From assembly GCF_027497255.1 (NCBI RefSeq), contig NZ_CP114903.1, positions 4,588,001-4,652,000 of the forward strand: a DNA stretch of 64,000 bases, given 5' to 3'. Below the pieces are notes generated by a model. It was not told the origin of the DNA, did no database searches, and saw only the letters and a list, made by a program, of their open reading frames with translations. Origin of the DNA: Micromonospora sp. WMMD882. GTDB taxonomy: Bacteria > Actinomycetota > Actinomycetes > Mycobacteriales > Micromonosporaceae. Every line of letters starts with the position of its first letter. The stretch's first letter is position 1. Made by a program: the position numbers and the translations under genes. Of this stretch, positions 35,968-61,888 are shown one piece after another.

Positions 35968-36014
35968 GCGGCGGTGGCGTCGGGCCGGATCCGCCGACCC
36001 GACGCCACCGCCGC
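35968..36014 (-). terminator. Terminator at the end of the secondary-lipid operon
   Basis: A perfect 17-bp inverted repeat (core GGTGGCGTCGGG; arms 35968-35984 and 35998-36014) with a 13-base loop begins two bases after the MFS stop codon. Confidence 0.85.
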
Positions 36015-36016
36015 CG

Positions 36017-37537
36017 TCACACCCGGGCCCAGTCGGTCTCCCGTGGGCCGGAGTCGGCCAGCGGGCCGCTCCCGCCGCTCGACGGCGAACCGGTCGTCCC
36101 GGTGACCGCCGGCGAGACCGGGGCGTCGGCCGGGGTCGCGGTCGGCCCGGACGCCGGCTTCTGCCGGCGGATCAGCGCGCCGGCCAGGGCGCCCACGGCC
36201 ACCACCGCGGCGCCGACGTAGAGCGCCGGGACAAGACCGTCGAAGAACGCCTGCGGACCGGCCGTCGGGTCCGGGCCGACCACGCCGCCGGACTGCTGGA
36301 AGACCGTGGCCAGGACGGCGATGCCGAGCGCGCCACCGATCTCCCGGACCGTGCTGTTCGCGCCGGAGGCCTTGCCGTGCTCGTGCTCGCGGACCGCGGC
36401 CAGCACCGTCGCCGAGTTGGGGGCGAAGGTGAGCCCCATGCCGGTACCGGCGACGATCATGGCCGGGATCAGCGCGGTGTACTCGCGGCCCGGCTCGGCC
36501 AGCGCGCCGATCCAGAAGAGCGCGCCGGCCTGCAGGGCGAGCCCGAGGGCCATCAGCGGGCCGCCGCCGATCCGGCTGGTCAGGATGCCCGCCACCGGGG
36601 CGAGGAACATCGGCATCAGGGTCCACGGCAGGGTCCGTACGCCCGCCTCCAGGGGCGAGTAGCCGAGCGGGCCCTGGAGGTACTGCACCAGCAGGAAGAT
36701 CGAGCCGAAGACGCCGAAGTACATCGCCAGCGACACCAGGTTGCTCAGCACGAACGGCCGGCTGCGGTAGAAGGTCAACGGCAGCAGCGGGTCCCGGGTA
36801 CGCCGCTCCCAGACCACGAAGAGGACGGCCAGCAGCGCGGCGCCGCCGAACGCGCCCAGGATCTCCGGGCTGCCCCAGCCCCGCCCCTCGGCCTCGACGA
36901 TCGCCCAGACCGCGACGGTCACCGCGCCGCCACCGAGCAGCATGCCGAGCACGTCCAGGCCCTTGCCGTTGCCCCGGCCCTCGGCGAGCGCCCAGTAGAC
37001 CAGACCGATCGCGGCCAGCCCGATCGGCACGTTCACCCAGAAGATCCACTGCCAGTTGAGCCCCTCGGTGACCGCGCCGCCGACCAGCGGGCCGACCGCC
37101 ACGGCGGTGCCGGAGACCGCGCCCCAGAGCCCGACCGCCAGGTTGCGTCGGCGCTGCGGCACCCCGGCGGCGAGCAGGGTCAACGACAGCGGGAAGACCG
37201 CCGCCGCGCCGATGCCCTGTACCACCCGGGCGGCGATCAGCAGCTCGGTCGTCCCGGCCAGGGCGCAGGCGGCCGACGCCGCCACGAAGACCACGATGCC
37301 CCCGACGAAGACCCGGCGTCGGCCGAGCCGGTCGCCGAGCGCCGCCGCGGTCAACTGCAGGCCGGCGAAGGCCAGCACGTACGCGTTGACCACCCACTGG
37401 AGCTCGTTCAGGCTCGCGCCGAGGTCCTTGCCGATCTCGGGCAGCGCGTTGGTGACCACCAGGTTGTTCAGCGCCACCAGGAACATCGGGACGGAACTGG
37501 CCACGATGGTGGCCGCGAGACCACGGCGTGGACTCAT
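36017..37537 (-). CDS. MFS drug/metabolite exporter (EmrB/QacA, 14 helices)
   Basis: A 506-residue major facilitator of the DHA2 type with 14 predicted helices. Motif A 'LGDRLGRRRVFVGG' lies between helices 2 and 3, motif B 'RVVQGIGAAAVFPLS' in helix 4 and motif C 'GAVSGTAVAVGPLVGGAV' in helix 5. It has a disordered Pro/Ser/Gly-rich cytoplasmic tail. The ATG overlaps the phosphopantetheinyl transferase stop by four bases (ATGA), making it the last gene of the lipid operon; it probably exports the product or an intermediate. The predicted substrate is inferred from position only. Confidence 0.92.
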   Translation of the reverse strand: MSPRRGLAATIVASSVPMFLVALNNLVVTNALPEIGKDLGASLNELQWVVNAYVLAFAGLQLTAAALGDRLGRRRVFVGGIVVFVAASAACALAGTTELLIAARVVQGIGAAAVFPLSLTLLAAGVPQRRRNLAVGLWGAVSGTAVAVGPLVGGAVTEGLNWQWIFWVNVPIGLAAIGLVYWALAEGRGNGKGLDVLGMLLGGGAVTVAVWAIVEAEGRGWGSPEILGAFGGAALLAVLFVVWERRTRDPLLPLTFYRSRPFVLSNLVSLAMYFGVFGSIFLLVQYLQGPLGYSPLEAGVRTLPWTLMPMFLAPVAGILTSRIGGGPLMALGLALQAGALFWIGALAEPGREYTALIPAMIVAGTGMGLTFAPNSATVLAAVREHEHGKASGANSTVREIGGALGIAVLATVFQQSGGVVGPDPTAGPQAFFDGLVPALYVGAAVVAVGALAGALIRRQKPASGPTATPADAPVSPAVTGTTGSPSSGGSGPLADSGPRETDWARV

Positions 37538-38331
37538 CGGACGACTCCTTCCGGGAGCTGTCGGACGGACAGCGGGTACGGGGCCGGCGCGGGCCGGCGG
37601 ACGGCGACGGCCAGGGTGTGGCCGGTGTTCAGGTGTCCAAGGTGGAACTGCCAGCGACGGTTCCGGGTCACGGGCAGCCGTGGGTCGTGCACCGCGACCG
37701 GGCCGTCCGGCACGCCGTGCACCTCGATGCGGTGGAAGCCGTACTGGAGGCCGGCGCCGAGCGCCTTGGTGTAGGCCTCCTTCGTCGCCCAGACGTCCAC
37801 GACGGCCGCCGCCCGGCGACCCGGCTCGACGGCGTCCAGTCGGGCCAGTTCCCGGTCGGTCAGGGCCCTGCGGAAGTACGGCAGCGCCTCCGGGCGCAGC
37901 GGACCCTGCACGTCGACGCCGCAGGGCGCCCCCCGGGTGACCAGGCAGGCGATCAGCCCCTCGGTGTGCGAGAGGTTGAAGCGCAGCCCCCACGGGTTCG
38001 GCGACAGCTCCGGTCGGCCGTACCGGCCGGTGGTGAAGGAGAGCGCGGCCGGCCGAGTCCCGGCGTACCGGGCCAGCAGCAGCCGGCTCATCAGCCGGGC
38101 GCCCAGGCAGCGGCGACGCGCGCCCGACGTGGCCAGCCGGCCGATCCGGTCCAGCTCGCCGGTGGTGAGCACCTCGGCCGGGGGCAGGTCCGCGGCGAGC
38201 CGGGGCACCGCCGACTCGGCCAGCAGCCACACCGTCGCCCCGACCAGGTCGGCCACCCCGTCGTCGGGCGTCCGTCGTGGCCGGACCCCGACCGGGGCGG
38301 GGTGCCGGCGCGCCGGCGCGAGGACGCTCAC
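37534..38331 (-). CDS. Sfp-type 4'-phosphopantetheinyl transferase
   Basis: A 265-residue enzyme that converts apo-acyl carrier proteins to the holo form with CoA. The Sfp motifs are present: '[16 protein letters not shown]', 'CGVDVQGP' (Mg2+-binding Asp) and '[18 protein letters not shown]' (the W-x-x-K-E-A-x-x-K motif). The GTG start (38329-38331) overlaps the dehydrogenase stop by four bases and its own stop overlaps the MFS start, so it is translationally embedded in the operon. Its expected substrates are the free ACP and the ACP inside the first megasynthase. Confidence 0.94.
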
Positions 38332-40100
38332 CGTCGCTCCCCGGAGGCGCTGAGCTGGAACTGCCAGACCGAGAAGAGCCGGCGCTCGTCGTGCAGCCCA
38401 CGCAGGATCTCCACCACCCGGTCGACCACGCCGACGTCGGTGACCGGCCGGGCCGGGTCGAACTGCCGCCACGAGCGTTCCAGGCTCATCAGCAGCAGCG
38501 CGCCGTCCGGGAACGGCTCGGCCAGCGCCCGGGCCGAGCGGGTGAACAGGTGCACCGTCGCGGCGGCGGCGTGGATCGCGCAGTACTGCTCGGCCAGCCG
38601 GAACAGCTCGGCGGTGCCGGCGAAGCCCCGGCCGTGCCCGGCGCGCAGCGCCTGCGTCTCCGCGTCGATGCGCTCCAGTTGGCCGTACAGCGTCTCGGCC
38701 ACGTCGGCGGCCCGCAGCAGCCACTCCCGCTGCCGCTGGTCGGAGTGCGCCCCGGCCTGCTCCCGCAGCAGCCGGACCGAGTCCGGCAGCAGCAGCACGG
38801 TGTCGTCGCCGCCCCGGCTGAACAACTGCTGGTCCTCGGGCCGCCACTCCGGCAGGGTGGCGTCCAGGTCGTACTGCGCCTCGATCCGGGCCGCCGCCTC
38901 CGCGGAGACCGGGCCGCGCGCCGTCCTGAGCAGCCCCTCCAGTTGCAGGGCGATGTTCTTCAGGTTCACCACCGTGTTGCCGTCGGCGAAGATCGCCACC
39001 AGCACGTCCCGCAGCATCTTCTGGTAGATGCCGTAGTGCGGGTGCGAGCGCAGGTAGAGCCGCGCGCCGAGGACCACCGAGAGCTGGGACATCGTCCGCT
39101 CCAGCAGGGTCGGCACGAAGTACTTGACGGCCGACGAGAAGACGCTGGTCTGCCCCGGGTTGGCCTGCAACCCCCGCACCGCCCCGGTGCTGACGCACTC
39201 CGCCACGATCAGGTCCGCGAAACACTCGGCGAGCTGACGCCGGGTGTACGGCACGTCGACGACCTTCTGCCCGAAGATCACCCGCTCGGTGACGAAGTCC
39301 AGCGTCACCCGCAGGGCGGTGTCCACCGCGCCCAGCGCCATGCCGCTGATCGTCGTCCGGGCCACCTGCGCGCTCTTGAGCGCGATCTCCAGGCCCTGCC
39401 CCTCGGCGCCGAGGCGGGCCGAGTCCGGGACGAACAGCCGCTCCAGCCGGATGCCGCTCATGTCCAGGGCCCGCAGCCCGTGCAGCCGCTCGTTGGGCAG
39501 CTCCACCACCGCGCCGGCCGGGGCCTTGCGCTTCTCCACCGAGAAGATGGACCAGCCACCCGGGCCGCCCCGCTCGTCGGTACGCGCCTGCACGCTCACC
39601 GCGTCGGCGATGGTGGCGTTGCCGATCAGCCACTTCTCGCCGGTGAGCAGGTAGCCGCCCTCGACGCGTTCGGCGCGCATCTCGTTGCTGAGCACGTCGC
39701 TGCCGTGCTCCCGCTCGGAGAGCCCCCACGCCATCCGGGTGCCGTGGTTGATGGCGTCGACGAAGTACCGCTTCTGCTCGTCGGTGCCGGCGATCCAGGC
39801 CGGCATGAACGCCAGGTCGGTGAGCATCAGCGCGGTCGCCGACGTGGGGTCCCGGCGGGCCACCAGCCGCAGCAGGTTGAAGCCGACCTCCACGTCGCCG
39901 GCCCGCCCGCCGAAGGCCGCCGGCAGGCAGTACTCGTGCAGTCGCCAGCGTTGCAGCAGGCCCACCAGCTCGTGCGGGAACTCCTCGCGCTCGTCGTAGC
40001 CCAGCACCGTCGCGAAGGACATCGGGCTCGACGGGTCGTGCGGGTCACCCAGGTAGCGCTCCAGCTCCTCGGCCAGCGCGATCTGGTGCTTGACGGTCAC
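38328..40100 (-). CDS. Acyl-CoA dehydrogenase-like protein 1
   Basis: A 590-residue flavoprotein of the acyl-CoA dehydrogenase fold, longer than the usual 380-400 because of an extra C-terminal region of about 190 residues. N-terminal helical part: 'HEYCLPAAFGGRAGDVEVG'. FAD-binding middle: 'AWGLSEREHGSDVLSNEMRA' and 'GEKWLIGNATIADAVSVQAR'. C-terminal helices: 'ERVIFGQKVVDVPYTRRQLA'. Where medium-chain enzymes have the catalytic E-G-T, this one reads A-D-G-N-T. The GTG start overlaps the second dehydrogenase gene by four bases. It probably oxidises an ACP- or CoA-bound acyl chain made by the megasynthases; this is inferred from context. Confidence 0.85.
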   Translation of the reverse strand: MTVKHQIALAEELERYLGDPHDPSSPMSFATVLGYDEREEFPHELVGLLQRWRLHEYCLPAAFGGRAGDVEVGFNLLRLVARRDPTSATALMLTDLAFMPAWIAGTDEQKRYFVDAINHGTRMAWGLSEREHGSDVLSNEMRAERVEGGYLLTGEKWLIGNATIADAVSVQARTDERGGPGGWSIFSVEKRKAPAGAVVELPNERLHGLRALDMSGIRLERLFVPDSARLGAEGQGLEIALKSAQVARTTISGMALGAVDTALRVTLDFVTERVIFGQKVVDVPYTRRQLAECFADLIVAECVSTGAVRGLQANPGQTSVFSSAVKYFVPTLLERTMSQLSVVLGARLYLRSHPHYGIYQKMLRDVLVAIFADGNTVVNLKNIALQLEGLLRTARGPVSAEAAARIEAQYDLDATLPEWRPEDQQLFSRGGDDTVLLLPDSVRLLREQAGAHSDQRQREWLLRAADVAETLYGQLERIDAETQALRAGHGRGFAGTAELFRLAEQYCAIHAAAATVHLFTRSARALAEPFPDGALLLMSLERSWRQFDPARPVTDVGVVDRVVEILRGLHDERRLFSVWQFQLSASGERR

Positions 40101-41866
40101 GGGAGGTCCCCCTTCCTCTTGTCGGCGCGGTCGTGTTCGGCCAGCGGCAGCGCGGTCACGGAGAGCAGCCGGCCGTCGGCGTGCAGCCGGGCCAGCGACC
40201 GGTACGTCGGTTCCACCAGGTCGGCCGGGAGCCGCCAGACGCCGCCCTGGGCCCGGGCCAGCAGGACGCCGACCGTGGCGGCCAGCCAGGCCGGGTCGCC
40301 GGCACGGCCGCCCAGCAGCGGCTGCTCCCGGTTGGCCCACCACAGGTGCACGCAGCTCGCGGCGGCGTGCAGGAAGCAGAACCGTTCCGCCTCCTCCAGC
40401 AGGTCCGGCGCGGTCCGGCCCCGGTGGCTCTCCAGCAGCCCGGCCACCCGGGCGAGCTCACCGGCCAGCGCGGTACGCAACCGGGCGACCGCCTGCGCGG
40501 CGGCGTCGGCGAGCGGACCGCCGACGGCGGCGAGCTCGGCCCGTACCCGGTCGGCGACCAGCGGCAGGCCACCGGTGACCGGGTCGTCCCGGCCGGCCAC
40601 CGCCAGCGCGTCCAGCCGGACCGGCGGCGGTGGCGTGGACAGGTCGAACAGCGCGGCGGTGTCCAGCGTGGAGCCGGGCTGGCCGGTCAGCGCCCACTGG
40701 GTCAGCACGGTGCCGACCAGGCGCAGGTTCGCCACCGGCCCGGTGTCGATGTGCCGGACCACCGCGTTGTCCCGGCGGAACGTGTCGAAGGCGGCGGCGA
40801 AGCCCTCCCGCAGCAGGGCGTGGGTGCCGAGCAGGTCGCCGCAGCGCTGGAAGACGTCCGCCGAGGCGTCCGTGCAGACCTGCTTCACCACGCTCGACCA
40901 GAGCCCCTGCGCCTTCGGCGCGAGGTGCAGCGCGCGGGCCGCGCCGAGCGCGCCGGCCTCCATCGCCAGCAGCGTGGCGGCGGCCGTGGCGAGCTGCCGC
41001 CGGGTCGGCGTCAGGTCGGCCAGCGGCCGGTCGGCGACCCGGTGGGTGGCGGCGAAGTCCGACGCCCAGCGCAGCGCCGAGTCGGCGGCGGCCAGGTTCG
41101 CCCCGGTGCTCATCACCCGGACGTACTGCATCGCCCGCATCGCCACGTCCAGACCCCGCCCGACCGGCCCCACCAGGGCCTCCGCCGGGACCGGGACGCC
41201 GGCGAAGTCGAAGCCGGTCAGACCGATCCCGCGCATCCCGCTGCTGCGGCGCACCCCGGTACGGCAGGCCGCGACCACCGGCCCCTCCAGCAGCACCAGC
41301 GTGAACGCGCCCGGACCCCGTCGCCCGGTACGGGCACAGACCAGCAGCGCCTCCGCCCGGTCCCCGAGCCCGACCAGCCACTTGTCGCCCCACAGCCGGT
41401 AGCCGCCGGAACCGTCCGGCTCCAGCCGGCAGCCGTTGGCGAGCAGGTCGCTGCCGTGCTCCACCTCGGTCAGCGCGAAGCCGACCGCGCCGCCCCGGCC
41501 GAGCAGCTCCACCACCCGGGCCCGCTGGCCGGCGTCCCCGGCCAGCAGGACGCAGGTGGCGGCGGTGATGCTGAACATGGTCGCCGGCATCACCGTCAGG
41601 TCCCGCCGGGCGGCGACCCGTACCGTCATCAGGGTCTCGTCGGCGCCGCCCAGCGTGCCCCCGTCGGTCTGCGGCACGTAGGAGCGGCGCAGCGCCGGGC
41701 CGACGGCGGCGGCCAGCGCCTCCGGGAAGGCCGCCGCCTCGTCCCGGGCCACCGCCGCGTCGAAGCCGTACGGGTTGCGCCAGTCGGTGGGGTCGCCGAG
41801 CGACCGGTCCAGGTCGGCGGCGACGGCGAACCGGGTCAGCGGCCCGGCCTCCAGGGTGCCGGTCAT
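40097..41866 (-). CDS. Acyl-CoA dehydrogenase-like protein 2
   Basis: A 589-residue paralogue of the preceding protein, equally long. Visible: 'VGFALTEVEHGSDLLANGCR', 'GDKWLVGLGDRAEALLVCAR', 'SSGMRGIGLTGFDFAGVPV' and 'SALRWASDFAATHRVADRPL'. The segment aligned with the catalytic E-G-T reads I-D-T-G, and the Arg-x-x-Phe-Gly motif of the helix bundle is not conserved, so activity is less certain than for protein 1. The two may form a heterodimer or act in sequence. The ATG (41864-41866) overlaps the pfaD stop (ATGA). Confidence 0.82.
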   Translation of the reverse strand: MTGTLEAGPLTRFAVAADLDRSLGDPTDWRNPYGFDAAVARDEAAAFPEALAAAVGPALRRSYVPQTDGGTLGGADETLMTVRVAARRDLTVMPATMFSITAATCVLLAGDAGQRARVVELLGRGGAVGFALTEVEHGSDLLANGCRLEPDGSGGYRLWGDKWLVGLGDRAEALLVCARTGRRGPGAFTLVLLEGPVVAACRTGVRRSSGMRGIGLTGFDFAGVPVPAEALVGPVGRGLDVAMRAMQYVRVMSTGANLAAADSALRWASDFAATHRVADRPLADLTPTRRQLATAAATLLAMEAGALGAARALHLAPKAQGLWSSVVKQVCTDASADVFQRCGDLLGTHALLREGFAAAFDTFRRDNAVVRHIDTGPVANLRLVGTVLTQWALTGQPGSTLDTAALFDLSTPPPPVRLDALAVAGRDDPVTGGLPLVADRVRAELAAVGGPLADAAAQAVARLRTALAGELARVAGLLESHRGRTAPDLLEEAERFCFLHAAASCVHLWWANREQPLLGGRAGDPAWLAATVGVLLARAQGGVWRLPADLVEPTYRSLARLHADGRLLSVTALPLAEHDRADKRKGDLP

Positions 41867-43461
41867 GCCGACGCACCCCCCGGCCGGTACGACCGCGCCG
41901 ACACCGGCAGCCGGATCCCGCTCAGGGTGAGCTGCTGCACCCGGCTGGCGTACGCCGCGCCGCGCATCAGCTCCGCCGCCACCCGGGCCACCCGGCGGTT
42001 GCCCGGCTCGGCCAGGTCGGTGCCGGCCACCCACTCGTTGAACGCGCCCATCGCCGGGCCGCACCACACCTGGTAGTCCGGGGCCCGGTCGCCCTCGCCG
42101 ACGCTGGCCCAGCGGGAGGCCATGCCGAGGTACCAGCGGAAGATCAGCGCCATCTTGCGGCGCGGCTCCCGACCGGCCCGTGCCAACTGCTCCGGGTCGC
42201 GGCGGGTGAAGTACTCCCGCACGTCGGTCCAGATGTCGTCGAGCGGCCGGCGGAAGATCTGGGTCTCCAGCCGGGCGCGTTCGTCGGCCGGCAGCGCCTC
42301 GATGCCGTCGTAGAGCTTGTACAGCTCGTACAGCCGGCGGGCCCGCATCGGGAAGAGGGTGCCCTTGCGGAGCACCTGGAGGTCCACGCCGAGCTCGAAC
42401 ATGTCGGCCGCCGGGGCCATGTCGCAGTCGGCCACCCCGGCCGCGGCGAGCATCCGACGGACCTGGTCGGAGGTGCCCGACTCGACGCACGCCTGGTGCA
42501 CCGAGCCGACCACCACGTAGTCGGCGCCCAGGCCGTACGCGGCGGCGACCGAGGTCGGGGTGCCCAGCCCGCCGGCGGCCCCGATCCGCACCGGGTACCC
42601 GAGGCGGCGCTGGGCCTCCTCGCGCAGCGCGGCGATCACCGGGAACAGGGCGACCAGCGGACGCCGGTCGGTGTGCCCGCCGGAGTCACCCTCGACGGTG
42701 ATGTCGTCGGCCATCGGCACCAGCCGGGCCAGCTCCGCCTGCTCGGCGGTGACCAGCCCCCGGGCCAGCAGGTCGGCGACCATCGACGCGGGCGGCGGGG
42801 CGAGGAACTTCGCGGCGACCTCGGGGCGGGACACCTTGGCGACGACCCGGTTGCCGACCGCGACCCGGCCCTGCGGGTCCCGGCCGAGGCCGGCGACCCG
42901 GTAGCGGACGATGTGCGGGGTGAGGTCCATGAAGGCCGACGCCTCCACGCAGCGCACCCCGTGCCGCAGGAACAGCTCCACCCCGGCGCGCTCCAGTTGC
43001 TCCTCGCTCGGGGCGTGGATCAGGTTCACCGCGTACGGCAGGCCCCCGAGCTCGCCGCGGAAGCGCAGCAGGGCCCGCTCGATGCGCTCCGGCAGCAGCC
43101 CGGCCGCGCCGAAGGAGCCGAGGTACCCGGCCCGGGCCAGCTCGACGGTCAGGTCCTCGGAGGCGATCCCGCCGGCCATCGCGCCACCCATGTAGGCGTA
43201 GCGCACGCCGTGGCGGGCTCGGAAACCGGCGTCACCGAGGCGTTCCGGGGTGAGCGGGCCGACGGCGGCGAGCACCGTGGTCGTCGCGGCGGGCTGCTGG
43301 TTGGTCACGCCGATCCCGTTGCCGGCGCGGACCACGTACACCGGCTCCTCCAGCCGGGCCAGGGCGGCCCGGATCCCGGCGGGATCGACGTGCGCCGGGC
43401 TCTGCCCGACGGGTACGGCACGTCCGGCGGTGGCGACGGCCGGTTGGACGGTGACGGTCAT
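41863..43461 (-). CDS. pfaD: PfaD-type trans-acting enoyl reductase (nitronate monooxygenase fold)
   Basis: A 532-residue FMN protein, the normal length for PfaD. 'MGGAMAGGIASEDLTVELARAGYLGSFGAAGL' pieces near the N-terminus, 'VNLIHAPSEEQLERAGVELF', 'DITVEGDSGGHTDRRPL', 'RIGAAGGLGTPTSVAAAYGLGADYVVVGSVHQ' pieces, and the C-terminal 'FELGVDLQVLRKGTLFPMRA' and 'IWTDVREYFTRRDPEQL' are the family signatures. In polyunsaturated fatty acid synthases this protein reduces enoyl-ACP intermediates in trans. It lies six bases after the second megasynthase gene. Its presence implies that at least some double bonds in the chain are saturated. Confidence 0.95.
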   Translation of the reverse strand: MTVTVQPAVATAGRAVPVGQSPAHVDPAGIRAALARLEEPVYVVRAGNGIGVTNQQPAATTTVLAAVGPLTPERLGDAGFRARHGVRYAYMGGAMAGGIASEDLTVELARAGYLGSFGAAGLLPERIERALLRFRGELGGLPYAVNLIHAPSEEQLERAGVELFLRHGVRCVEASAFMDLTPHIVRYRVAGLGRDPQGRVAVGNRVVAKVSRPEVAAKFLAPPPASMVADLLARGLVTAEQAELARLVPMADDITVEGDSGGHTDRRPLVALFPVIAALREEAQRRLGYPVRIGAAGGLGTPTSVAAAYGLGADYVVVGSVHQACVESGTSDQVRRMLAAAGVADCDMAPAADMFELGVDLQVLRKGTLFPMRARRLYELYKLYDGIEALPADERARLETQIFRRPLDDIWTDVREYFTRRDPEQLARAGREPRRKMALIFRWYLGMASRWASVGEGDRAPDYQVWCGPAMGAFNEWVAGTDLAEPGNRRVARVAAELMRGAAYASRVQQLTLSGIRLPVSARSYRPGGASA

Positions 43462-43467
43462 GACGGC

Positions 43468-50961: not shown

Positions 50962-50984
50962 GACTACTCCATCCGCAGGGTGTG

Positions 50985-53900: not shown

Positions 53901-56900
53901 CACGGTCGCCTGGTGGGTGACCGGGGCGTAGTCGATCGCCGCGCCCGGGGCGATCATGGTGGTCTCCAGTTGCGCGAAGCTGCGCAGCACCTCGCTGGCC
54001 ACGGCGTGGCTCTGCCCGATGGCCAGGCTGTGCTCGGCGACGGCGGTGATGCCGGCGAGCACCCGGTCGGCCGGCCCGTCCTGCTGCCGGCTGCCCTCCT
54101 CGACCAGGTTGGTCAGCCGCTCCGACAACCGGAGCTGGTTGTGCAGGTAGTCGCCGTGCATGGCGAGGTGGTTCGCGGCGATCGCGCCGACGCTCGGCAC
54201 GAGCTGACCGGGCGCGACGTGCCCGGTCCCGTTGTGCCCGTGGCCGTTGTGGCCGTTGCCGTTGTGGCCGTGGCCGTTGCTCGGCCCGGTCGGGGCGGTG
54301 GGGGCCGACGGGGCGGCCGGGACGCCCTCGACCCGGTAACCGTCGCGCAGCGCCTCCTGGTATTCGCGCCGGCGTCCCTCCGACACGTGGTTGACACCGT
54401 TCAACTCGATCATCATCCCCTCGGTGCGCGGCGGCAGGGTGACCTCCGCCTGGTAGCGGTTGAATCCGTCGATCGGCAGGCCCAGGACGGCCAACCGGGC
54501 GGCGAGCTGCTTCAGGGCCCGGTCGCTGTCACGACCGGGTCCGGCGTCGGCGGAGAGCACGACGACGTCGGGGCGGTCGGCCAGCACCCGCCGTACCAGG
54601 CCGGCCAGGACCTTCTTCGGTCCGAACTCGACGAAGACCCGGAAGCCGTCGTCGTACATCTGGGCGACCCGGGGCGCGAAGCCGACCGGGTTGGCAAGCT
54701 GCCGCACCAGGACCCGGGCGTTCTCGCCGGGGTCGGCGCCGTAGCCGGCGTCCTCGGTGTTGGCGTAGACCGGGATCCGCGGCTGGCCGACGGTGACCCG
54801 TTCGACCGCCGCGCCGAAGCGGTCCACGGCGTGGCTGACGTACCGGGTGTGGAAGGCCGCCGCCACCGGCAGCGGCTTCGCGTCGACCCCGGCCGCCCGG
54901 CAGGCCGCGACGAACGCCCCGACGGCCTCGGTGCCGCCCCCGACCACCAACTGGTCCGGCGCGTTGATGTTGCAGATGACGACGTCCGGGTGGCCGTCGA
55001 GCAGGCGCTCCACGGTCGGCCGGTCGGCCGGGACGGCCGCCATGGTGCCCGGGTCGTCGCTGTCGGCGTCGCCGCGTTCGGCCATCGCCACGCCACGGGC
55101 CCGGGCCAGCGCGTGGAAGTCCTCGTCGCCGAGGCTGCCGGCGGCCCAGAGCGCGGTCAGCTCACCGAAGCTGTGCCCGAGCGCGCCCTCCGCGGTGAAG
55201 CCGAGTTCCCGCAGGTAGGCGTACTGGCCGGCGGAGACCGCGCCGATCGCCGGCTGGGCGTAGTCGGTGCGCCGCAGCGCCTCCTCCTGCCGCTTGCGGG
55301 TGGCGTCGTCGAAGGCCGGCGGCGGGAAGACCACCCGGCCCAGCGGCTCGGCCCCGGCGAAGTGCGCCGCCGCCGCGTCCAGGGCCGCCCGCACCGGCGG
55401 CACCGAGATCGCCGCCTCGGTCGCCATCGAGACGTACTGGCTGCCCTGCCCGGCGAAGAGCGCGGCCACCCTGCCGGTCTCCGCCGCCGACCGCCGGTAG
55501 TACGCCCCGCCGGGCAGCTCGAACGACTCGATCTCCGGGTTGTCGGCGATCCGCTGGCAGGCCTGCTCCCGCAGCTCGTCGCGCTCGGCGTCGGTCCGGG
55601 CGACCACGGCGAGGCGGGCGTGCCCGGCCGGCGGCGGGGCGTCCCCGGCCGGCCCGTCCGGGTGCTCGCGGGCCTGGGTCAGCAGCGCCTGCGGGTCCGC
55701 GCCGTGCCAGAGGTGCACCTTCGCGGTACGGTGCAGCACGGTCAGCCCGGCGCCGGTCGGGTCGTGCTCCTCCAGGACACAGTGGAAGTTCGTGCCACCG
55801 AAGCCGAACGACGAGACCGCCGCCCGCCGGCGGGGACGCTCCGGTTCGAGGATCCACGGCCGGGTGACGGTGTTGACGTAGAACGGGGAGTCGGCGAAGC
55901 CCATCGCCTCGCGGGGCTGGTCGACGTTGATCGTCGGCGGCAGGAGCTTGTGGTACAACGCCAGCGTCGACTTGATCATGCCGGCCGCGCCGGCCGCGGC
56001 CTTGGTGTGCCCGATCTGGCTCTTGACGCTGCCCACCGCGGCGAAGTTGCGCTCGTCGGTGACCGCCGCGAAGACCTCCTTGAGGGCGCTCACCTCGGTC
56101 AGGTCACCGACGGCGGTGCCGGTGCCGTGGCACTCGACCAGACCGACCTGCTCGGGGCCGAAGCCCGCGTCCTCGTACGCCCGGCGCAGCGCGACGACCT
56201 GGCCCTCCTTGCGGGGGGCGTAGATGCTCTTGAACCGGCCGTCGCTGGAGGTGCCGATGCCGCGCAGCACCGCGTAGATCCGGTCCCCGTCGCGTTCGGC
56301 GTCGGCCAGCCGCTTGAGCGCCAGCATGCCGATGCCCTCACCGATCAGGGTGCCGTCGGCGTTCTCGTCGAACGGCCGGATCTCGCCGGCCTTCGAGAAC
56401 GCCGGGGTCTTGGAGAAGCACAGGTACATCAGGATGGTGTTCTCGGCGTCGCAGCCGCCGGTGATCATCAGGTCGGCCCGGCCGGAGATCAGCTCCGCCG
56501 CCGCCGCGTGCACCGCCGTCAGCGAGCTGGCGCAGGCCGCGTCCACCGTGAAGTTGCTGCCACCGAAGTCGAACCGGTTGGCGATCCGGCCGGCCACGAC
56601 GTTGCCGAGCATGCCCGGGAAGGAGTGCTCCTCCCACGGCGCGAACGCCTTGACGAACTTCGCCGAGATCTCCTCGGCGTCGCGCTCGCTGAGCCCGCAG
56701 CTACGGACGACCTCCTTGAGCACCGGCGTCTGCAACCGGGTCGCCAGCGGCTGGGTCAGCGAGTTCGCCCCGGTGATGCCGAGCACCACGCCGGTCCGCT
56801 CCTTGCGGTACCACTCGGCGTCCGGCGCGCCGGCGTCGGCCAGGGTCTGCTTCGCCACCACCAGGCTGAGCAGTTGCAGCACGTCGGTGACCTCAAGGGT

Positions 56901-58136
56901 GTTCGGCGGCAGGCCGAACTCCAGCGGGTTGAACGGCACCGTGGGCACGAAGCCGCCGCGCTTGGCGTACGTCTTGTCCGGCGCCTTGGGGTCGGGGTCG
57001 TAGTGGTCGGAGATCCGCCAGTGCGTCTCGGGCACGTCCTCGATGCAGTCGGCGGCGTCGACCACGTTGCTCCAGAACTCCCCCAGGTCACCGGAGCGCG
57101 GGTAGAGCGCGCCGAGCCCGACGATCGCGATGGGGGTGTCCGCCGTCCGGCGGGGAGAGGTGTTGTCGCGGTCCATGACACGGTCCGTTCCGGTCGATGA
57201 CGCCTCATGGTCGGTGCCGGGCGACCGGTCGGCGGCGTGGGCGCCGCCCCCGGTGGACGCCGGTTCGGCGCCCTCGCCCAGCAGGTCACGGGCCGTACCG
57301 GCGATCCGGTCCACGGCCGTGGGCTCCTGCAACATCGTGTAGTGGTCGCCGGGGCAGCCCAGCACCGTCAGGTCCCCGGTCAACGACCGCCAACCCAACG
57401 GGTCCGGACCGTCCAGCAGGCCCCGCTCGGGCCGGACCAGCGTCACCGGCACCGGCGCGCGACGCGGCTCGTACGCCTGCGCCAGCCGGTTGTTGCGGAC
57501 CAGCCCCTGCAGGTACGTGTCGAGCACCTTGCGCAGCCCCGGCAGGGTGGTGTCGGCGCGGACCGCCTTGTGCTCGCGGGCCACCTCCAGCACCGTGCGC
57601 AGGCCGGCCTCCCGGTCCCCGGCGGGCAGCGCGGCCACCGGCAGCTCGACGCCCTTGCGGGCGCCCAGGTACATGGCGAACCAGCGCAGCACCTCGGCGT
57701 CGTCGAGGTCGCCGTCGAGCGCGGTGTACTCCGGCACCGGCGCGATGCTGTCCAGGGTGAGCAGCGCGACCGGGCGCTCGGCCGGCGCGAGCAGCGCGGC
57801 CAGCTCCAGCGCCACCACGCCGCCGAACGACCAGCCGGCCAGGCACCACCGGCCGGTGGTCAGGTCACGCCGGCGCAGCTCGTCGGCGACCCGCTGGGCC
57901 AGGGCCGGGATGGAGGTGCCGGGGTCCCCGCCGCGCAGCGCCGCCTCGAAGTACTCCGGGACGTGTTCCAGGTTGACCACGTGCAGCGCGGCGGCGGGCG
58001 CCAGCGCGGCGGCGAGTCCGGTGTAGACGGTGGCCGGCAGCGCCCCCGGGTGCACCAGGACCACCGCGTCGGCGCCGCGGCCGGCCTTCCCGACGCGGGT
58101 CACCACCTCACGGGGTCGCCGTTCACCTCGTCGCAT
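50985..58136 (-). CDS. TE-KS-AT-ACP-KR-DH megasynthase, PfaA-like with N-terminal thioesterase
   Basis: A 2383-residue protein. Domains: an alpha/beta-hydrolase thioesterase (about 15-290; Ser103 in 'GWSFGG', His265 in 'PGDHYTM'), an Ala/Gly/Thr linker, KS (about 332-770; Cys535 in 'DAACASS', His in 'ECHGTGTAVGD' and 'SVKSQIGHTKA'), AT (about 870-1180; Ser989 in 'GHSFGE'), a His-Gly-Asn-rich linker, a Pro-Ala-rich linker, one ACP (Ser1555 in 'LGIDSIKRVEI', the Pfa type), KR (about 1830-2100, 'TGGGRGVTAA', Tyr near 2025 in 'SDYAMANEALN') and a C-terminal dehydratase-like hotdog ('HRIGEHPVLPA'). The ATG at 58134-58136 overlaps the ACP gene by 14 bases. An internal ATG (57174-57176) just before the KS has only a weak ribosome site, so a fused protein is preferred. 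Confidence 0.9.
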   Translation of the reverse strand: MRRGERRPREVVTRVGKAGRGADAVVLVHPGALPATVYTGLAAALAPAAALHVVNLEHVPEYFEAALRGGDPGTSIPALAQRVADELRRRDLTTGRWCLAGWSFGGVVALELAALLAPAERPVALLTLDSIAPVPEYTALDGDLDDAEVLRWFAMYLGARKGVELPVAALPAGDREAGLRTVLEVAREHKAVRADTTLPGLRKVLDTYLQGLVRNNRLAQAYEPRRAPVPVTLVRPERGLLDGPDPLGWRSLTGDLTVLGCPGDHYTMLQEPTAVDRIAGTARDLLGEGAEPASTGGGAHAADRSPGTDHEASSTGTDRVMDRDNTSPRRTADTPIAIVGLGALYPRSGDLGEFWSNVVDAADCIEDVPETHWRISDHYDPDPKAPDKTYAKRGGFVPTVPFNPLEFGLPPNTLEVTDVLQLLSLVVAKQTLADAGAPDAEWYRKERTGVVLGITGANSLTQPLATRLQTPVLKEVVRSCGLSERDAEEISAKFVKAFAPWEEHSFPGMLGNVVAGRIANRFDFGGSNFTVDAACASSLTAVHAAAAELISGRADLMITGGCDAENTILMYLCFSKTPAFSKAGEIRPFDENADGTLIGEGIGMLALKRLADAERDGDRIYAVLRGIGTSSDGRFKSIYAPRKEGQVVALRRAYEDAGFGPEQVGLVECHGTGTAVGDLTEVSALKEVFAAVTDERNFAAVGSVKSQIGHTKAAAGAAGMIKSTLALYHKLLPPTINVDQPREAMGFADSPFYVNTVTRPWILEPERPRRRAAVSSFGFGGTNFHCVLEEHDPTGAGLTVLHRTAKVHLWHGADPQALLTQAREHPDGPAGDAPPPAGHARLAVVARTDAERDELREQACQRIADNPEIESFELPGGAYYRRSAAETGRVAALFAGQGSQYVSMATEAAISVPPVRAALDAAAAHFAGAEPLGRVVFPPPAFDDATRKRQEEALRRTDYAQPAIGAVSAGQYAYLRELGFTAEGALGHSFGELTALWAAGSLGDEDFHALARARGVAMAERGDADSDDPGTMAAVPADRPTVERLLDGHPDVVICNINAPDQLVVGGGTEAVGAFVAACRAAGVDAKPLPVAAAFHTRYVSHAVDRFGAAVERVTVGQPRIPVYANTEDAGYGADPGENARVLVRQLANPVGFAPRVAQMYDDGFRVFVEFGPKKVLAGLVRRVLADRPDVVVLSADAGPGRDSDRALKQLAARLAVLGLPIDGFNRYQAEVTLPPRTEGMMIELNGVNHVSEGRRREYQEALRDGYRVEGVPAAPSAPTAPTGPSNGHGHNGNGHNGHGHNGTGHVAPGQLVPSVGAIAANHLAMHGDYLHNQLRLSERLTNLVEEGSRQQDGPADRVLAGITAVAEHSLAIGQSHAVASEVLRSFAQLETTMIAPGAAIDYAPVTHQATVPSYQQPAIGGAPRPYGFTGVGYAPQATAPTYAPDTVEQAAPISPAVAPISPAVGPVATPAAAPVSAAVTPVATPAAAPAATPAAAPVSPAAAPVSPAVAPAAAGADADTVRAALLNIVADKTGYPTDMLDPSMDVEADLGIDSIKRVEIMGALRESFPGSPSASPERLAELHTLDDIVQFVAGAAAGSTGAEVVSGPKAERLPRIDRWQASLTRLPAPDRQEKAYRDAPVALLAGAGGPLADALADALTAAGWRIGQAGGTYDDGLDLVLYLAPEQADDTTAATAALRAAALLARDTQRPLERTAAGSRAAFVTVARLDGRLGVVPSAGPAGSAELATVALGGLSGLVKTLAVEAPSVYCRAVDVAAGLPVARVVELLLAELHDAAVAVREVGHDADGARWTTRLTAGPADADGPEVAPPGPADLLVVTGGGRGVTAACVSDLARRYGVGLLLLGRTPLADEPAWAQGVPLDQLKGVIARALRADGAKVSPKDVERRFQELKAQREIRQTLAEASAGGARVSYLPADVTDPDALRAALAGHRDRITGVVHGAGVLADQLIVDKRPEDIDRVLGTKLTGLAGLLAALDTDRLRHVVLFSSVAGFFGNRGQSDYAMANEALNRIAARLRGARPDARITSINWGAWAGGMVTPELARLFTERGVDLIPLETGVRMFTEQFDGARSADLVTVIGPDKPLSEAGPRPLPADGVPVVRELAGLGDEPVLTDHRIGEHPVLPATVALGGMLAAAAAVTGAPVTAARDFTVLKGVVLDDDAPRRLRFRVTPDGADARVDVRDEADRPRYRAVVEAAQPGTAPRLTGLPAVDAGEETTAYADGTLFHGETLRGLRRVLDPGRRMVLLAELPETPLADGAWGVDRYDPALADLLLQAVLVWVGRHTGQASLPTGVDRVELYAPIPTGAPFLVVVDEVTVSAPTVRCTVSACATDGAVLARFTGVQAIVRDNGVTQSTSNAR
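53595..53780. repeat. Degenerate 21-bp repeats coding for a Pro-Ala linker
   Basis: About eight imperfect 21-bp units (GCCGGGGAGACCGGCGCGGC type) encode the APVSPAA-like linker before the ACP of the first megasynthase. Confidence 0.7.
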
Positions 58137-58413
58137 CGCGCTGCTTCTCCACGATGTAGCCGGCGAGCTCGTTGATGGTCGGGTGGTACCAGAGGGCGGT
58201 GGTCTCCAGCTCGAACCCGAGCCAGTTCTCCAGCTCCCCGGAGAGCACCAGCGCCTCGGTGGAGTCCAGGTCGAACTCGTCGAAGTACTGGTCGACGTTC
58301 ACCTGGTCGGCGGGCACGCCCAACCGGTGGGCGATCTTCCCGACCAGCCAGTCGCGGACCTCGTCCGCGGTCAGTGCGGCGGCCGGGCGGGTGGTGGTCA
58401 CCTGATTCGTCAT
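58123..58413 (-). CDS. Free-standing acyl carrier protein
   Basis: A 96-residue carrier protein with the phosphopantetheine site 'FDEFDLDSTEALVLSGELE' (serine in D-S-T) in the usual second helix and a short variable N-terminus. The D-S-T-E context differs from the D-S-I-K of the ACP inside the megasynthase, so it may be a starter or hand-off carrier. The ATG at 58411-58413 has AGGA five bases upstream; the in-frame start further upstream overlaps repeats. Its stop overlaps the megasynthase start by 14 bases, so both are translated together. Confidence 0.88.
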   Translation of the reverse strand: MTNQVTTTRPAAALTADEVRDWLVGKIAHRLGVPADQVNVDQYFDEFDLDSTEALVLSGELENWLGFELETTALWYHPTINELAGYIVEKQRDATR

Positions 58414-58467
58414 CGCATTCCTCGCTTCGGACCGTTTCCGGGCATGGCGAACCCATGCTCCGTTCAG

Positions 58468-58513
58468 GGCGGAACAGTGCGGCCGTTTCCGGCGGAACAG
58501 TGCGGCCGTTTCC
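58468..58513. repeat. 23-bp direct repeat upstream of the ACP-megasynthase genes
   Basis: Two perfect 23-bp copies (GGCGGAACAGTGCGGCCGTT core) end to end, and a partial third after them. They lie 55-100 bp upstream of the ACP start in a 144-bp intergenic gap, a position suiting an operator. Confidence 0.75.
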
Positions 58514-58524
58514 GGCGGATGCGT

Positions 58525-58546
58525 CGCCGGATATTTCACTCCGGCG
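58525..58546 (-). terminator. Weak hairpin between the flavoprotein and ACP genes
   Basis: CGCCGGA and TCCGGCG form a 7-bp stem with an 8-base loop, 12 bases after the flavoprotein stop. It could attenuate rather than fully stop transcription into the megasynthase genes. Confidence 0.4.
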
Positions 58547-58557
58547 TTGGCGGCGAT

Positions 58558-59859
58558 TTACCGGGGGGCCGCCCCGGCGGCACGACGGACGGCTTCGGCG
58601 GCGGCCAGACCGGAGTCGAAAGCCGACTCGTGACTGCCGATGATGTCGATCCCCATCTTCCGGGAATGGAAGTAGGAGCCGGCGAACTTGATGCGGGAAT
58701 CGTCGGCGTTGATCGAGTGGATGTCGCGCTGGAGGGCACGGACCTCGGTGGTGAGAATGGGGTGCCGGTAGGACATCTCGTGGATGACGAGCTCGTCGCG
58801 GACGTCGAGCGGGCAGTCGAGGGTGACGAAGTAGTCCCGTTCGGCGTCGAGGTGCTGCAACTTGTTCAGGTAGTAGACGACCCAGGACTGCTGCCCCGCG
58901 CCGTCGCCGACGCGTCCGTAGTTCCAGCTCCGCCACCGCTGCCGGTCGGCGGGCATGACCGAGGCGTCGCCGTGCAGCAGCGCCCGGGTGCCGTGGTAGC
59001 GGATCGGGTCGAGTCGCTGCTGGCTGGGGGTCGGCTCGGCGAGCATTCCGAGCGCGTCGTCGGCGTGCGTGGCGAGCACCACGTAGTCGAAGCGCTCCGG
59101 TCCGGTCGGGCCGTGCACGAGAACCTGGTCGTCTTCGGCGCGGACCTGCCCGACCGGCGCGTCGAGCCGGACGTCCACCCCGGACGCCGCGAACTGCTCG
59201 GCGACCTTGCGGACGTAGTTGACGCTGCCGCCGGTGACGGTGCGCCAGGGGGCGCTCTGCCCGCCCAGGCCCTCGTGGCCGTGCGCGAAGAAGAAGGCGA
59301 TGATCGTGCTGGCCGGCATCTCCCAGATCCGCTCCGCCGGCACCGACCAGGCGGCGGTGGCGATGAGCACCACGAAGCCGTACCGGAAGGCGGCGCTGTA
59401 GCCGTTGCGGTCGAGGTACTCGCCGAGCGGGATGTCGGCCCTGCGGCGGACGAAGTCGCGCGGCGCCTCGGTCTGGAAGCGTCGCGCCTCCCGCCACAGG
59501 TGGGCGAAGTCGGCGTCGTACCGCTGCCCGATCTGCTCCTCGGTCAGCTCGAAGTCCTCCGACACGTAGCTGCGCCGGCGGTCGAGGTCGAAGAAGCAGA
59601 ACTGTCCCGGGTGGTCCTGGGTCTGCACCCCCAGTTCACCGAAGAACTTGGCGATCAGCGGGTAGTGGGCCTCGTTGTAGACGATGAAGGCGGTGTCGAG
59701 ACCGAGCGCCCGGCCGCCTTCCTGGACCTCGATGGTGTTCGCGTGCCCACCCAGTCTCGAATCGGCTTCGAACAGCGTCACTTGAGCGTCGTCTCGCAGA
59801 TGGTACGCGGCGGACATACCCGCGATCCCCGCGCCGACCACTGCAACTCGAGGAGTCAC
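58558..59859 (-). CDS. FAD-dependent amine-oxidase-fold protein (COG2907-like)
   Basis: A 433-residue flavoprotein. 'VAVVGAGIAGMSAAYHLR' (dinucleotide fold), 'TLFEADSRLGGHANTIEV' and the C-terminal 'IKFAGSYFHSRKMGIDIIGS' are typical of the COG2907 NAD/FAD-binding family. Those proteins usually occur with DUF1365 and cyclopropane-fatty-acid synthase genes and act on fatty acyl chains; neither partner is present here. The GTG at 59857-59859 is chosen because GGGAGG lies six bases upstream and the dinucleotide fold starts four codons later. It is the first enzyme gene after the sigma factor in the lipid cluster, so a role in modifying the chain is inferred. Confidence 0.85.
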   Translation of the reverse strand: MTPRVAVVGAGIAGMSAAYHLRDDAQVTLFEADSRLGGHANTIEVQEGGRALGLDTAFIVYNEAHYPLIAKFFGELGVQTQDHPGQFCFFDLDRRRSYVSEDFELTEEQIGQRYDADFAHLWREARRFQTEAPRDFVRRRADIPLGEYLDRNGYSAAFRYGFVVLIATAAWSVPAERIWEMPASTIIAFFFAHGHEGLGGQSAPWRTVTGGSVNYVRKVAEQFAASGVDVRLDAPVGQVRAEDDQVLVHGPTGPERFDYVVLATHADDALGMLAEPTPSQQRLDPIRYHGTRALLHGDASVMPADRQRWRSWNYGRVGDGAGQQSWVVYYLNKLQHLDAERDYFVTLDCPLDVRDELVIHEMSYRHPILTTEVRALQRDIHSINADDSRIKFAGSYFHSRKMGIDIIGSHESAFDSGLAAAEAVRRAAGAAPR

Positions 59860-60174
59860 CCGTGTCCTCCCATCTCCGGCTTCTTCCTCATCGTGGAGAG
59901 CCGCCTTCGGCTTCCCCATCCATACAGAGAGGACGGTCGACGCGCCGGATACATCTTCGGGGAAGTTTTCTCGACGAATCTCAACGGTCAATGCAAACGG
60001 CCGGTCCGCAGGGTCGGACCGGCCGTTCGGGCAGGAAGGATCGCGTATGGCGAGAAGCGGTTGCCACGATTGTCGACAACCGCGAACGGGCCTCATTACC
60101 CACTCGGTGGAGGATCAAACCTCGGCGTTTCGGGTTTCTTCGCGTGGATCTCGTGCGGCGGTCCGGGCCGCCGC
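59860..60174. other. Intergenic stretch between sigma factor and flavoprotein genes
   Basis: 315 bp without a convincing gene. It holds the hairpin at 59996-60027, a possible promoter for the flavoprotein gene (TTGACC at about 59,987 on the minus strand), and a 7-bp inverted repeat GCGGTTG/CAACCGC (60057-60083). A short plus-strand open frame beginning at 60047 lacks support. Confidence 0.5.
59996..60027 (-). terminator. Hairpin terminator after the sigma factor gene
   Basis: A perfect 13-bp stem (AACGGCCGGTCCG and complement) with a 6-base loop. It separates the sigma factor transcript from the flavoprotein gene. Confidence 0.7.
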
Positions 60175-60825
60175 TCAACCGGCCAGGGCGAGCTGCGGCT
60201 GGACGCTTTCGCGCAGCCGGCGCAACAGGCGGTTGCGGGTGGGGCCGATCGAGCCGCGCGGGATGCCCAGGGCGGCGCTGATCTCGTCGTAGCTCATCGC
60301 GGGCTCGCGCAGGAGCATGGCCAGCAACGCCTGGTGCTGCTTCTCCAGACCCCGGAAGGCGGCCATCAGCCGGACGTCCGGGGACCGGTCGAGGATGGTC
60401 TCCTCCACCACCGCGGCGGCGTCGGGCCAGGCGTCGAAGGGCGAGTTGTCGCCGATCGGCACCTGCCGGCGATCCCGTTCCAGTTGCTTCATCGCCTCGC
60501 GCCGGGCGATGGTCACCAGCCAGGAGGCCAGTTTCTCCGGCTCGCGCAGCCGGTGGATGTTCTCCACCACCCGCAGCCAGGTGACCTGACAGACGTCCTC
60601 GCAGTCGGCGGTGCGCAACCGGAACGACCGGGCGACCGACCAGGGCACGGAAGAGTAGGCGCCGATCAGCTCGGCCCAGGCCGCCTGGTCCCCCGCCTGG
60701 CACGCGGCGACGAGCAGCGCCAAGGGGCTGAACAGGGCTGTCTCCGGTGTCGCCGTGTCGTCCGCCTCCGCGGTCCTGATACCTGCAAGGGTCTGCGTGC
60801 CGGGGCCCCGATCTGCCACATCCAC
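60175..60825 (-). CDS. ECF-type RNA polymerase sigma factor
   Basis: A 216-residue sigma-70 family factor with region 2 ('DQAAWAELIGAYSSVPWSVA', then 'DCEDVCQVTWLRVVENIHRL') and region 4 ('LLREPAMSYDEISAALGIPR', 'GSIGPTRNRLLRRLRE'); no region 3, as in ECF factors. No anti-sigma gene is adjacent. The GTG at 60823-60825 has GAGGAGG upstream. It is at the head of the lipid cluster on the same strand and divergent from a TetR gene, so it may direct transcription of the cluster; target promoters could not be identified by eye. Confidence 0.92.
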   Translation of the reverse strand: MDVADRGPGTQTLAGIRTAEADDTATPETALFSPLALLVAACQAGDQAAWAELIGAYSSVPWSVARSFRLRTADCEDVCQVTWLRVVENIHRLREPEKLASWLVTIARREAMKQLERDRRQVPIGDNSPFDAWPDAAAVVEETILDRSPDVRLMAAFRGLEKQHQALLAMLLREPAMSYDEISAALGIPRGSIGPTRNRLLRRLRESVQPQLALAG

Positions 60826-60866
60826 CTTGCCTGCCTCCTCCCCCTGGCAGTTTCAGCGATCGACAG

Positions 60867-60916
60867 TAACGTTAGCGTACCCTATGTACATCCGCTAGCA
60901 CGGGACGCTAAAGTTA
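60867..60916. promoter_or_regulatory. Inverted repeat between sigma factor and TetR genes
   Basis: TAACGTTAGCGT (60867-60878) and ACGCTAAAGTTA (60905-60916) are inverted copies with 11 of 12 matches and 26 bases between. The region is clearly more AT-rich than its surroundings and lies between two divergent genes, fitting a TetR operator over divergent promoters. Confidence 0.55.
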
Positions 60917-60992
60917 ACACCCGACAACGCAAACTCCATGAACCGGACACGCGTCACCTGTCGGGTTCACGCTGGAAGGAGGGCTCGAAGCC

Positions 60993-61727: not shown

Positions 61728-61740
61728 CCTGACCCTCCGC

Positions 61741-61794
61741 CACCCTCCGACCTTCCGCCACCCTCCGACCTTCCGCCACCCTCCGACCTTCCGC
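61741..61794. repeat. 18-bp tandem repeat, three copies
   Basis: Three perfect copies of CACCCTCCGACCTTCCGC directly after the TetR gene, with a partial copy before. Confidence 0.9.
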
Positions 61795-61888
61795 CACCAG
61801 CCGGCGCCGCGCGGTCCGCGCCGGCGCCGCTGCGGAACCCCGCCCCCACCGACCCCCGAAAACAGCGCCCGACCGAGACAGGAGAACC

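Follow-up and report, generated by a model that had tools for sequence, protein, structure and literature searches.

A minus-strand gene cluster in the window analysed here (64,000 nucleotides, positions 4,588,001 to 4,652,000 of contig NZ_CP114903.1, part of the single-contig 6.37 Mb genome of Micromonospora sp. WMMD882) brings together a Pfa-type lipid synthase, two acyl-CoA dehydrogenase paralogues (ACAD1 and ACAD2) and a free acyl carrier protein (ACP). Judged by sequence, the ACAD pair together with the free ACP can be recognised as a unit known from lipopeptide biosynthesis, a point overlooked in the first-pass annotation of this DNA. Because the gene set recurs in relatives, we consider that the cluster probably makes a secreted, extra-desaturated lipid by means of a Pfa synthase plugged into a lipopeptide desaturation unit, a reading in which our confidence is evenly balanced. 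The cluster unites two open problems, the orphan Pfa types and the lipopeptide ACADs, within a single compact operon, which is also met in named Streptomyces strains and on plasmids, and its ACAD-ACP desaturation unit is a portable module, found without fatty acyl-AMP ligase (FAAL) or nonribosomal peptide synthetase (NRPS) neighbours.

ACAD1 and ACAD2 are unlike the enzymes of beta-oxidation and, on sequence evidence, are two clades within the family of lipopeptide ACADs that lie next to FAAL genes. In a tree of 94 rows, built by a quick method with long branches flagged and without the named Tar, Mlc and Lip sequences among its rows, ACAD1 (20/20 rows) and ACAD2 (20/20) each form one clade (SH-aLRT 100 each), and the 88 rows from Pfa clusters and FAAL-linked loci form one group (100) apart from six generic ACADs. 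A fork with a support of 85 unites ACAD1, ACAD2 and three cyanobacterial FAAL-linked rows. The 18 second lipopeptide ACADs form one clade; the 25 first ones need four label changes, and five further rows (three of them cyanobacterial) need three. The column of the usual catalytic glutamate holds Glu in 6/6 generic ACADs and Asp in all 40 Pfa-cluster ACADs (20/20 ACAD1, 20/20 ACAD2), with Asp in 21 and Glu in 4 of the 25 first lipopeptide ACADs, and Asp in four and Glu in one of the five further rows. In the window the residue at this putative base position is Asp374 of ACAD1 and Asp373 of ACAD2. It is worth recording that 16 of the 18 second lipopeptide ACADs have His in this column (the other two have gaps), which may be a clue to the way in which the second double bond is formed. 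The idea that ACAD1 derives from a second lipopeptide ACAD is supported neither by the tree nor by this column. A structural model of ACAD1 (pLDDT 85) has the full ACAD fold plus an extra C-terminal helical part and matches the MCAD, SCAD and VLCAD structures, so that, as modelled, ACAD1 can be a working dehydrogenase.

The loci in which related genes lie were also compared. Of 30 family loci found with ACAD2, five are Pfa clusters, and a FAAL match lies in the short flank of 17 of the other 25; a FAAL match also lies beside the ACAD in all three Anabaena/Nostoc loci, and ACAD2 matches on plasmids include FAAL-ACAD-ACAD-ACP units adjoining NRPS genes in Streptomyces NBC_01244 and Burkholderia glumae. 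According to a 2021 review, lipopeptide lipids owe their double bonds to ACADs whose genes lie between those for FAAL and ACP (Baltz 2021, PMC9113097). LipB is there assigned to the C3 double bond of friulimicin by gene disruption, with Tar5/MlcH probably responsible for the C2 and Tar6/MlcI for the C4 double bond; the likely substrates are FAAL- or ACP-bound acids, the lipid tails being C8-C15, and no mechanistic studies are reported in it (PMC9113097). HliR, a 392-aa ACAD from a different clade (the TcsD clade), is described as dehydrogenating an enoyl thioester at the gamma,delta position (PMC4768178).

The free ACP shares 37% identity with each of two lipopeptide ACPs (E 9e-16 and 1e-16), which show hardly any match to the ACP domain of PfaA. 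A free ACP is present in 7/7 ACAD clusters for which the upstream end is available, and in none of six Pfa clusters whose stretches give no ACAD match (G071, G108, G150, Rhodococcus, Persicobacter and S. cattleyicolor). Pfam detects no AMP-binding or condensation family among the cluster proteins of the window, and FAAL and NRPS queries (one each per type) matched, at E<=1e-10, neither the 64-kb window nor 19 further stretches of the 23 clusters.

The features of the locus are as follows, those on the minus strand being given in order of transcription from the ECF gene to the ABM gene:

60993..61727, plus strand, divergent from the cluster: TetR-family regulator (Pfam TetR_N, 43 bits)
60175..60825, minus strand: extracytoplasmic function (ECF) sigma factor of the sigma-70 family (TIGR02937, 66 bits, cut-off 42.9)
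58558..59859, minus strand, GTG start at 59859: FAD protein with amine-oxidase fold, LkcE/UfaD-like (Pfam Amino_oxidase)
58123..58413, minus strand: free ACP, 96 aa (Pfam PP-binding, 48 bits)
50985..58136, minus strand: PfaA-like megasynthase, 2383 aa, thioesterase (TE)-ketosynthase (KS)-acyltransferase (AT)-ACP-ketoreductase (KR)-dehydratase (DH) (Pfam domains, motifs)
43468..50961, minus strand: PfaBC-like megasynthase (PfaC for short), 2497 aa, KS-chain length factor (CLF)-AT-DH-DH (Pfam, PDB match, two HFxxDP motifs)
41863..43461, minus strand: PfaD enoyl reductase (TIGR02814, 628 bits, cut-off 449)
40097..41866, minus strand: ACAD1, acyl-CoA dehydrogenase paralogue, 589 aa (Pfam)
38328..40100, minus strand: ACAD2, acyl-CoA dehydrogenase paralogue, 590 aa (Pfam)
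37534..38331, minus strand: Sfp-type phosphopantetheinyl transferase (PPTase; Pfam ACPS, 52.9 bits)
36017..37537, minus strand: major facilitator superfamily (MFS) exporter, DHA2/EmrB family (TIGR00711, 276 bits, cut-off 230)
35968..36014, minus strand: hairpin, probable terminator, in the 81-bp gap between the MFS and ABM genes
35369..35935, minus strand: antibiotic biosynthesis monooxygenase (ABM)-superfamily oxygenase, 188 aa (Pfam PF13826 'Monooxygenase af470-like', 96.8 bits, cut-off 25)

All of the minus-strand genes named in the first-pass annotation were found with open frames, and Pfam and NCBIfam assign their families; the ABM oxygenase and the divergent TetR gene were absent from its list. 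The four 4-base overlaps that it described, at the junctions from PfaD through ACAD1, ACAD2 and PPTase to MFS, are exact, and in addition the free ACP and PfaA genes overlap by 14 bases, with gaps of 23 bases between PfaA and PfaC and 6 bases between PfaC and PfaD. The genes start later than the longest open reading frames, PfaC for instance at 50961 and not at 53280. The hairpin has arms of 21 nt (35968-35988 and 35994-36014) that are 95% complementary with the first 17 pairs perfect, as had been claimed, and a folding energy of -51.1 kcal/mol (z -6.9); its supposed position after the last gene has to be corrected, as the same-strand ABM gene (35369-35935) lies beyond it.

The complete PfaA-, PfaBC- and PfaD-like set supports the original assignment to the Pfa-type secondary-lipid clusters. 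Among the motifs checked, those of the TE (GWSFGG), AT (GHSFGE), single ACP (DSI) and KR (YAMAN), the Cys/His sets of both KS domains and two FabA-like HFxxDP motifs are intact. Residues 15-748 of PfaBC have as their best PDB match 6riw ORF10 (477 bits), the next being a polyketide synthase (211). We take 6riw to be the KS-CLF of Moritella PfaC, and the CLF assignment leans on this match. The FabA family of Pfam matches PfaBC in two stretches (252 bits), which with the two HFxxDP motifs indicates that a FabA-like DH pair is present. The linker ahead of these domains, at about residues 1650-1690, contains a near-perfect glycine-rich tandem repeat, GGGGNGTA. Elsewhere in the host genome (about 3690092-3697771) there is a second Pfa-like synthase of 2559 aa, with the order NMO (PfaD-like)-KS-AT-three ACP stretches-KR, and another KS match adjoins it (at about 3.69 Mb).

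PfaA of the window has one ACP, where the first-pass annotation gave four to nine in tandem for the synthases of eicosapentaenoic and docosahexaenoic acid, and had read the single ACP as a sign of a different, shorter product. This argument fails because eight clusters that share this accessory set carry from one to five ACPs: one in the window, G114, G151 and G163, two in S. albogriseolus, four in G172 and NBC_00503, and five in S. globosus. Other ACP numbers are also described for the type J/R relatives (PMC3098273), and ACP number is reported to alter the yield of polyunsaturated fatty acids (PUFA) and not their profile (Hayashi 2016, PMC5067506). The other parts of the earlier proposal, export and extra desaturation, are plausible.

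A search with the window PfaD gave matches at E<=1e-60 in 37 of 300 genomes of the family Micromonosporaceae, the window's own included. The region was examined in nine other genomes, in four of which the ACAD pair lies beside PfaD (G114, G151, G163 and G172), and no ACAD pair is present in the stretch for the remaining five (G071, G051, G108, G135 and G150). Beyond the family, a scan with two peptide patterns from the ACAD2 alignment, covering one genome per species in 84,980 species, returned 34 loci. Pfa genes adjoin the ACAD in 17 of these, which come from Sphaerisporangium album, Wenjunlia, 12 Streptomyces, Glycomyces, Kitasatospora and one metagenome-assembled genome; of the other 17, three are FAAL loci of cyanobacteria and 14 are weak or different ACAD matches. 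Three further clusters lie on Streptomyces plasmids (S. globosus, NBC_00503 and S. albogriseolus). With duplicates removed (L038, the same as the G151 record, and L052, the same as G163), this amounts to 23 clusters. In a class-wide sample, matches at E<=1e-90 occur in 3 of 394 genomes, namely the window's own and two others; both of the latter are FAAL/NRPS loci, and therefore the sample holds no further Pfa-type cluster at that threshold. The cluster is rare.

The succession PfaC, PfaD, ACAD1, ACAD2 is kept in all 23 clusters, and these genes have been inherited together: pairwise distances of PfaD, the DH region of PfaBC, ACAD1 and ACAD2 are correlated over the 23 clusters with Mantel r of 0.89-0.97 (0/999 permutations as high for the ACAD pair, PfaD and PfaBC), the correlation with MFS being lower (0.74-0.79, 19 clusters). 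The FAD gene is found in 19/23, the stretches of L035, L047, L048 and G163 being without the upstream part. An ECF homologue is found in at least 5/23 (window, G114, L047, L048 and L108), a lower bound because the upstream part is missing from many stretches. The accessory genes are conserved with the megasynthases in other genera, so that the cluster stands up to one of the two refuting conditions set in the first-pass annotation, loss of the flanking genes in related genomes. Its fixed ten-gene order did not hold, as ECF, PPTase, the FAD gene and MFS shift place or were not seen in relatives. S. globosus and NBC_00503 encode the TE separately (by annotation), and in S. albogriseolus its match falls in a different frame (by match coordinates), the S. 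globosus TE being 46% identical to the fused TE of the window.

The closest cluster, in G114, belongs to another genus and has flanking DNA in common with the window on both sides (window positions 60175-62305, with the TetR gene, align at 82%); the locus itself is therefore shared there. An NRPS-like gene was seen at about 32.8-34.7 kb of the G114 stretch (L019 and L020 joined), a few kb upstream of this sister cluster. Within the genus, a match to the TetR gene at E<=1e-60 occurs in 1/61 genomes, which is the window's own. Another genome of the genus has a PfaD-like match with one in-frame TGA (G209:C11:74285-75796), perhaps a decayed copy.

The KS domains were placed in a tree of 45 rows, which holds neither characterised Pfa, Hgl and enediyne references nor any KS row from the Agrobacterium vitis, G198, G052, G220, G021 and G260 stretches, and in which 12 rows taken in at 25-30% identity are CLF domains by placement. 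The eight rows for the PfaC KS of ACAD clusters fall into a single clade (100/99), to which Persicobacter is nearest. The PfaA KS of the window groups with those of G114, Glycomyces, S. albogriseolus and the ACAD-less G071 and G051 (99/98). The last two carry Pfa clusters (L026 and L027; L028 and L029) with a PfaA KS 74% identical to that of the window, and no ACAD, free ACP, FAD gene or PfaC KS was seen in their stretches. This pattern suggests that the accessory genes are acquired or lost all together.

The FAD protein has its top-scoring match in Micromonospora sp. DT31 (91%), and resembles LkcE both by sequence and by fold (model pLDDT 89; TM 0.80). Its relatives occur in 105 plasmid records; the two that were inspected (37% and 38%) adjoin sigma, ChrR or cupin, and DUF1365 genes, and one of them also lies beside a cyclopropane fatty acid (CFA) synthase. 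UfaD is described as the FAD desaturase of furan fatty acid synthesis, yielding a conjugated diene (PMC7380195). The ABM oxygenase belongs to the cluster. Its product is 68% identical to that of the gene after MFS in Sphaerisporangium (L035), and an ABM-superfamily gene is present in 19/23 clusters, of the PF13826 type in the window, L035, L047 and L048 and of the DUF3291 type in the others (the proteins of L045, L069 and L037 match Pfam DUF3291, with PF13826 below cut-off in 3/3). The count includes a protein of L036 that is encoded on the opposite strand, has no Pfam family and was admitted by BLAST kinship; no ABM gene was found at the contig end in G163. The related Fma-ABM (af470) is described as cleaving a polyene oxidatively in fumagillin biosynthesis, and a homologue is proposed to act likewise in limocrocin (PMC7020470, PMC11727611). 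In Sphaerisporangium album, acetyl-CoA carboxylase-like genes, judged from residues, follow the ABM gene (L035:14632-18324) and are a possible source of malonyl-CoA.

We propose the following pathway. PfaA, PfaBC and PfaD, with their intact domains, would iteratively build a long acyl chain from malonyl units, in which the FabA-like dehydratase/isomerase domains would leave some double bonds. The Pfa synthase would thus be the acyl source in place of a FAAL, and in a putative transfer step the chain would be handed on by the ACP of PfaA to the free ACP. ACAD1 and ACAD2, as members of their family, would then dehydrogenate the acyl-ACP near the thioester; by analogy with relatives in lipopeptide starter synthesis, the products would probably be alpha,beta/gamma,delta conjugated. 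The FAD protein might, like UfaD, add or shift a further double bond, and in the weakest step the ABM-type oxygenase may act on the polyene by oxidation or cleavage. Finally the TE would free the acid and the MFS protein would export it. A bolder version, in which three separate flavin desaturases (ACAD1, ACAD2 and the UfaD-like protein) take hydrogens out from between the double bonds of a skipped Pfa polyene on a dedicated ACP and so turn it into a long, fully conjugated lipid, which the ABM oxygenase trims to an exported polyene acid or diacid, we regard as doubtful.

Several observations weigh against this pathway and the product that it implies. Neither ACAD falls inside the clade of the first or of the second lipopeptide ACADs in the 94-row tree, and both lack the His by which the second (putative C4) ACAD is distinguished, so that a strict division into C2 and C4 desaturation does not follow. 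The best solved relative of the FAD protein, LkcE, is an amine oxidase/cyclase and not a desaturase. The ABM gene was not found in the available stretches of G114, G151 and G172, and in the window it sits behind a strong hairpin. An NRPS-like match lies near, outside the core, in 3/23 stretches (G114, L108 and L036), in G114 with a weak FAAL-like match at the same place.

These NRPS-like matches also bear on the possibility that the acyl-ACP is not freed as an acid but donated to a scaffold, peptidic or other, whose genes lie elsewhere. ACPs and ACADs of this type feed NRPS condensation domains, hybrid Pfa-PKS-NRPS pathways (PKS, polyketide synthase) are known (PMC13291983), and near the end of the NBC_00503 stretch, about 10-20 kb further along, an adenylate-forming and a condensation-domain gene lie amid type II PKS genes. 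We nevertheless think such a donation unlikely, as the cluster itself contains a TE and an MFS exporter, and as neither the AMP-binding and condensation families in the cluster nor FAAL and NRPS matches in the window and the 19 further stretches were detected. Alternatively, the free ACP and the ACADs could prepare a short unsaturated starter which the Pfa synthase elongates, placing the extra double bonds at the far end of the chain. There is a precedent in HliR, described as making the dienoyl thioester with which a PKS starts (PMC4768178), and the free ACP and TE genes directly precede PfaA in S. globosus and NBC_00503. However, a TE gene beside the ACP fits unloading better, Pfam finds no ligase or other starter loader among the cluster proteins, and the desaturation credited to related ACADs concerns lipid tails of C8-C15 (PMC9113097), so that we consider this order of events rather unlikely.

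It is also conceivable that the ACAD-like proteins are flavoenzymes of a kind other than dehydrogenases, oxygenases for example, and the product oxygenated rather than extra-desaturated, given the Asp in place of the usual catalytic Glu in every ACAD1 and ACAD2 row and a weak match of ACAD1 to EpxF (E 4e-7). Since the same Asp occurs in most of the first lipopeptide ACADs, whose family is credited with double-bond insertion, we judge this very unlikely. An ordinary membrane-PUFA operon with unrelated neighbours would account for the complete PfaA/BC/D set, but is disfavoured by conservation: the ACAD pair has diverged in step with the synthase across the 23 clusters and recurs in several genera, and with an exporter and a TE present as well this explanation is highly improbable.

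Compared with systems already described, the synthase agrees in architecture with the Type C secondary-lipid synthase of Shulse and Allen 2011, which by the text of PMC3098273 has a pfaBC fusion (KS-CLF-AT-DH2) with pfaD 3' of it, but which comes from one deltaproteobacterium; the main text of that paper does not use the terms acyl-CoA dehydrogenase or thioesterase. It does describe many types of secondary-lipid (Pfa-like) synthase without known product (PMC3098273). The FAAL-ACAD-ACAD-ACP starter units of taromycin (Tar5/Tar6), malacidin (MlcH/MlcI) and friulimicin (LipB) share with the window paired ACADs of about 590 aa (PMC9113097), a small free ACP of the same type and the Asp found at the base position of most first ACADs. 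The window differs from them in having no FAAL or NRPS, with the Pfa synthase as the apparent acyl source, and in that both of its ACADs are in separate clades and lack the His of the second ACADs. The Pfa-PKS-NRPS triple hybrids (zeamine, fabclavine, megapolipeptin and chitinimines) have a similar PfaA/PfaBC/PfaD-like core, in some cases with a stand-alone TE and PPTase (PMC13291983), but unlike the window they include a PKS-NRPS part, and the term 'acyl-CoA dehydrogenase' is absent from the main text of PMC13291983. The gene context of the two inspected relatives of the FAD protein (beside sigma, ChrR/cupin and DUF1365 genes) resembles that of ufaD-ufaO-ufaM (PMC7380195); neither a DUF1365 nor a CFA synthase gene occurs in the window cluster. 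In the open-licence literature, judged by titles and the starts of abstracts, we recognised no description of this gene set.

Two minor features of the window may be added. ARAGORN predicts a tRNA-Ser at 38442-38520 on the minus strand, which we take to be a probable false positive because it lies within the conserved frame of ACAD2. The upstream neighbour of the locus (62776-63918, minus strand) encodes WCWG..GQLGDGT repeats and is RCC1-like by eye.

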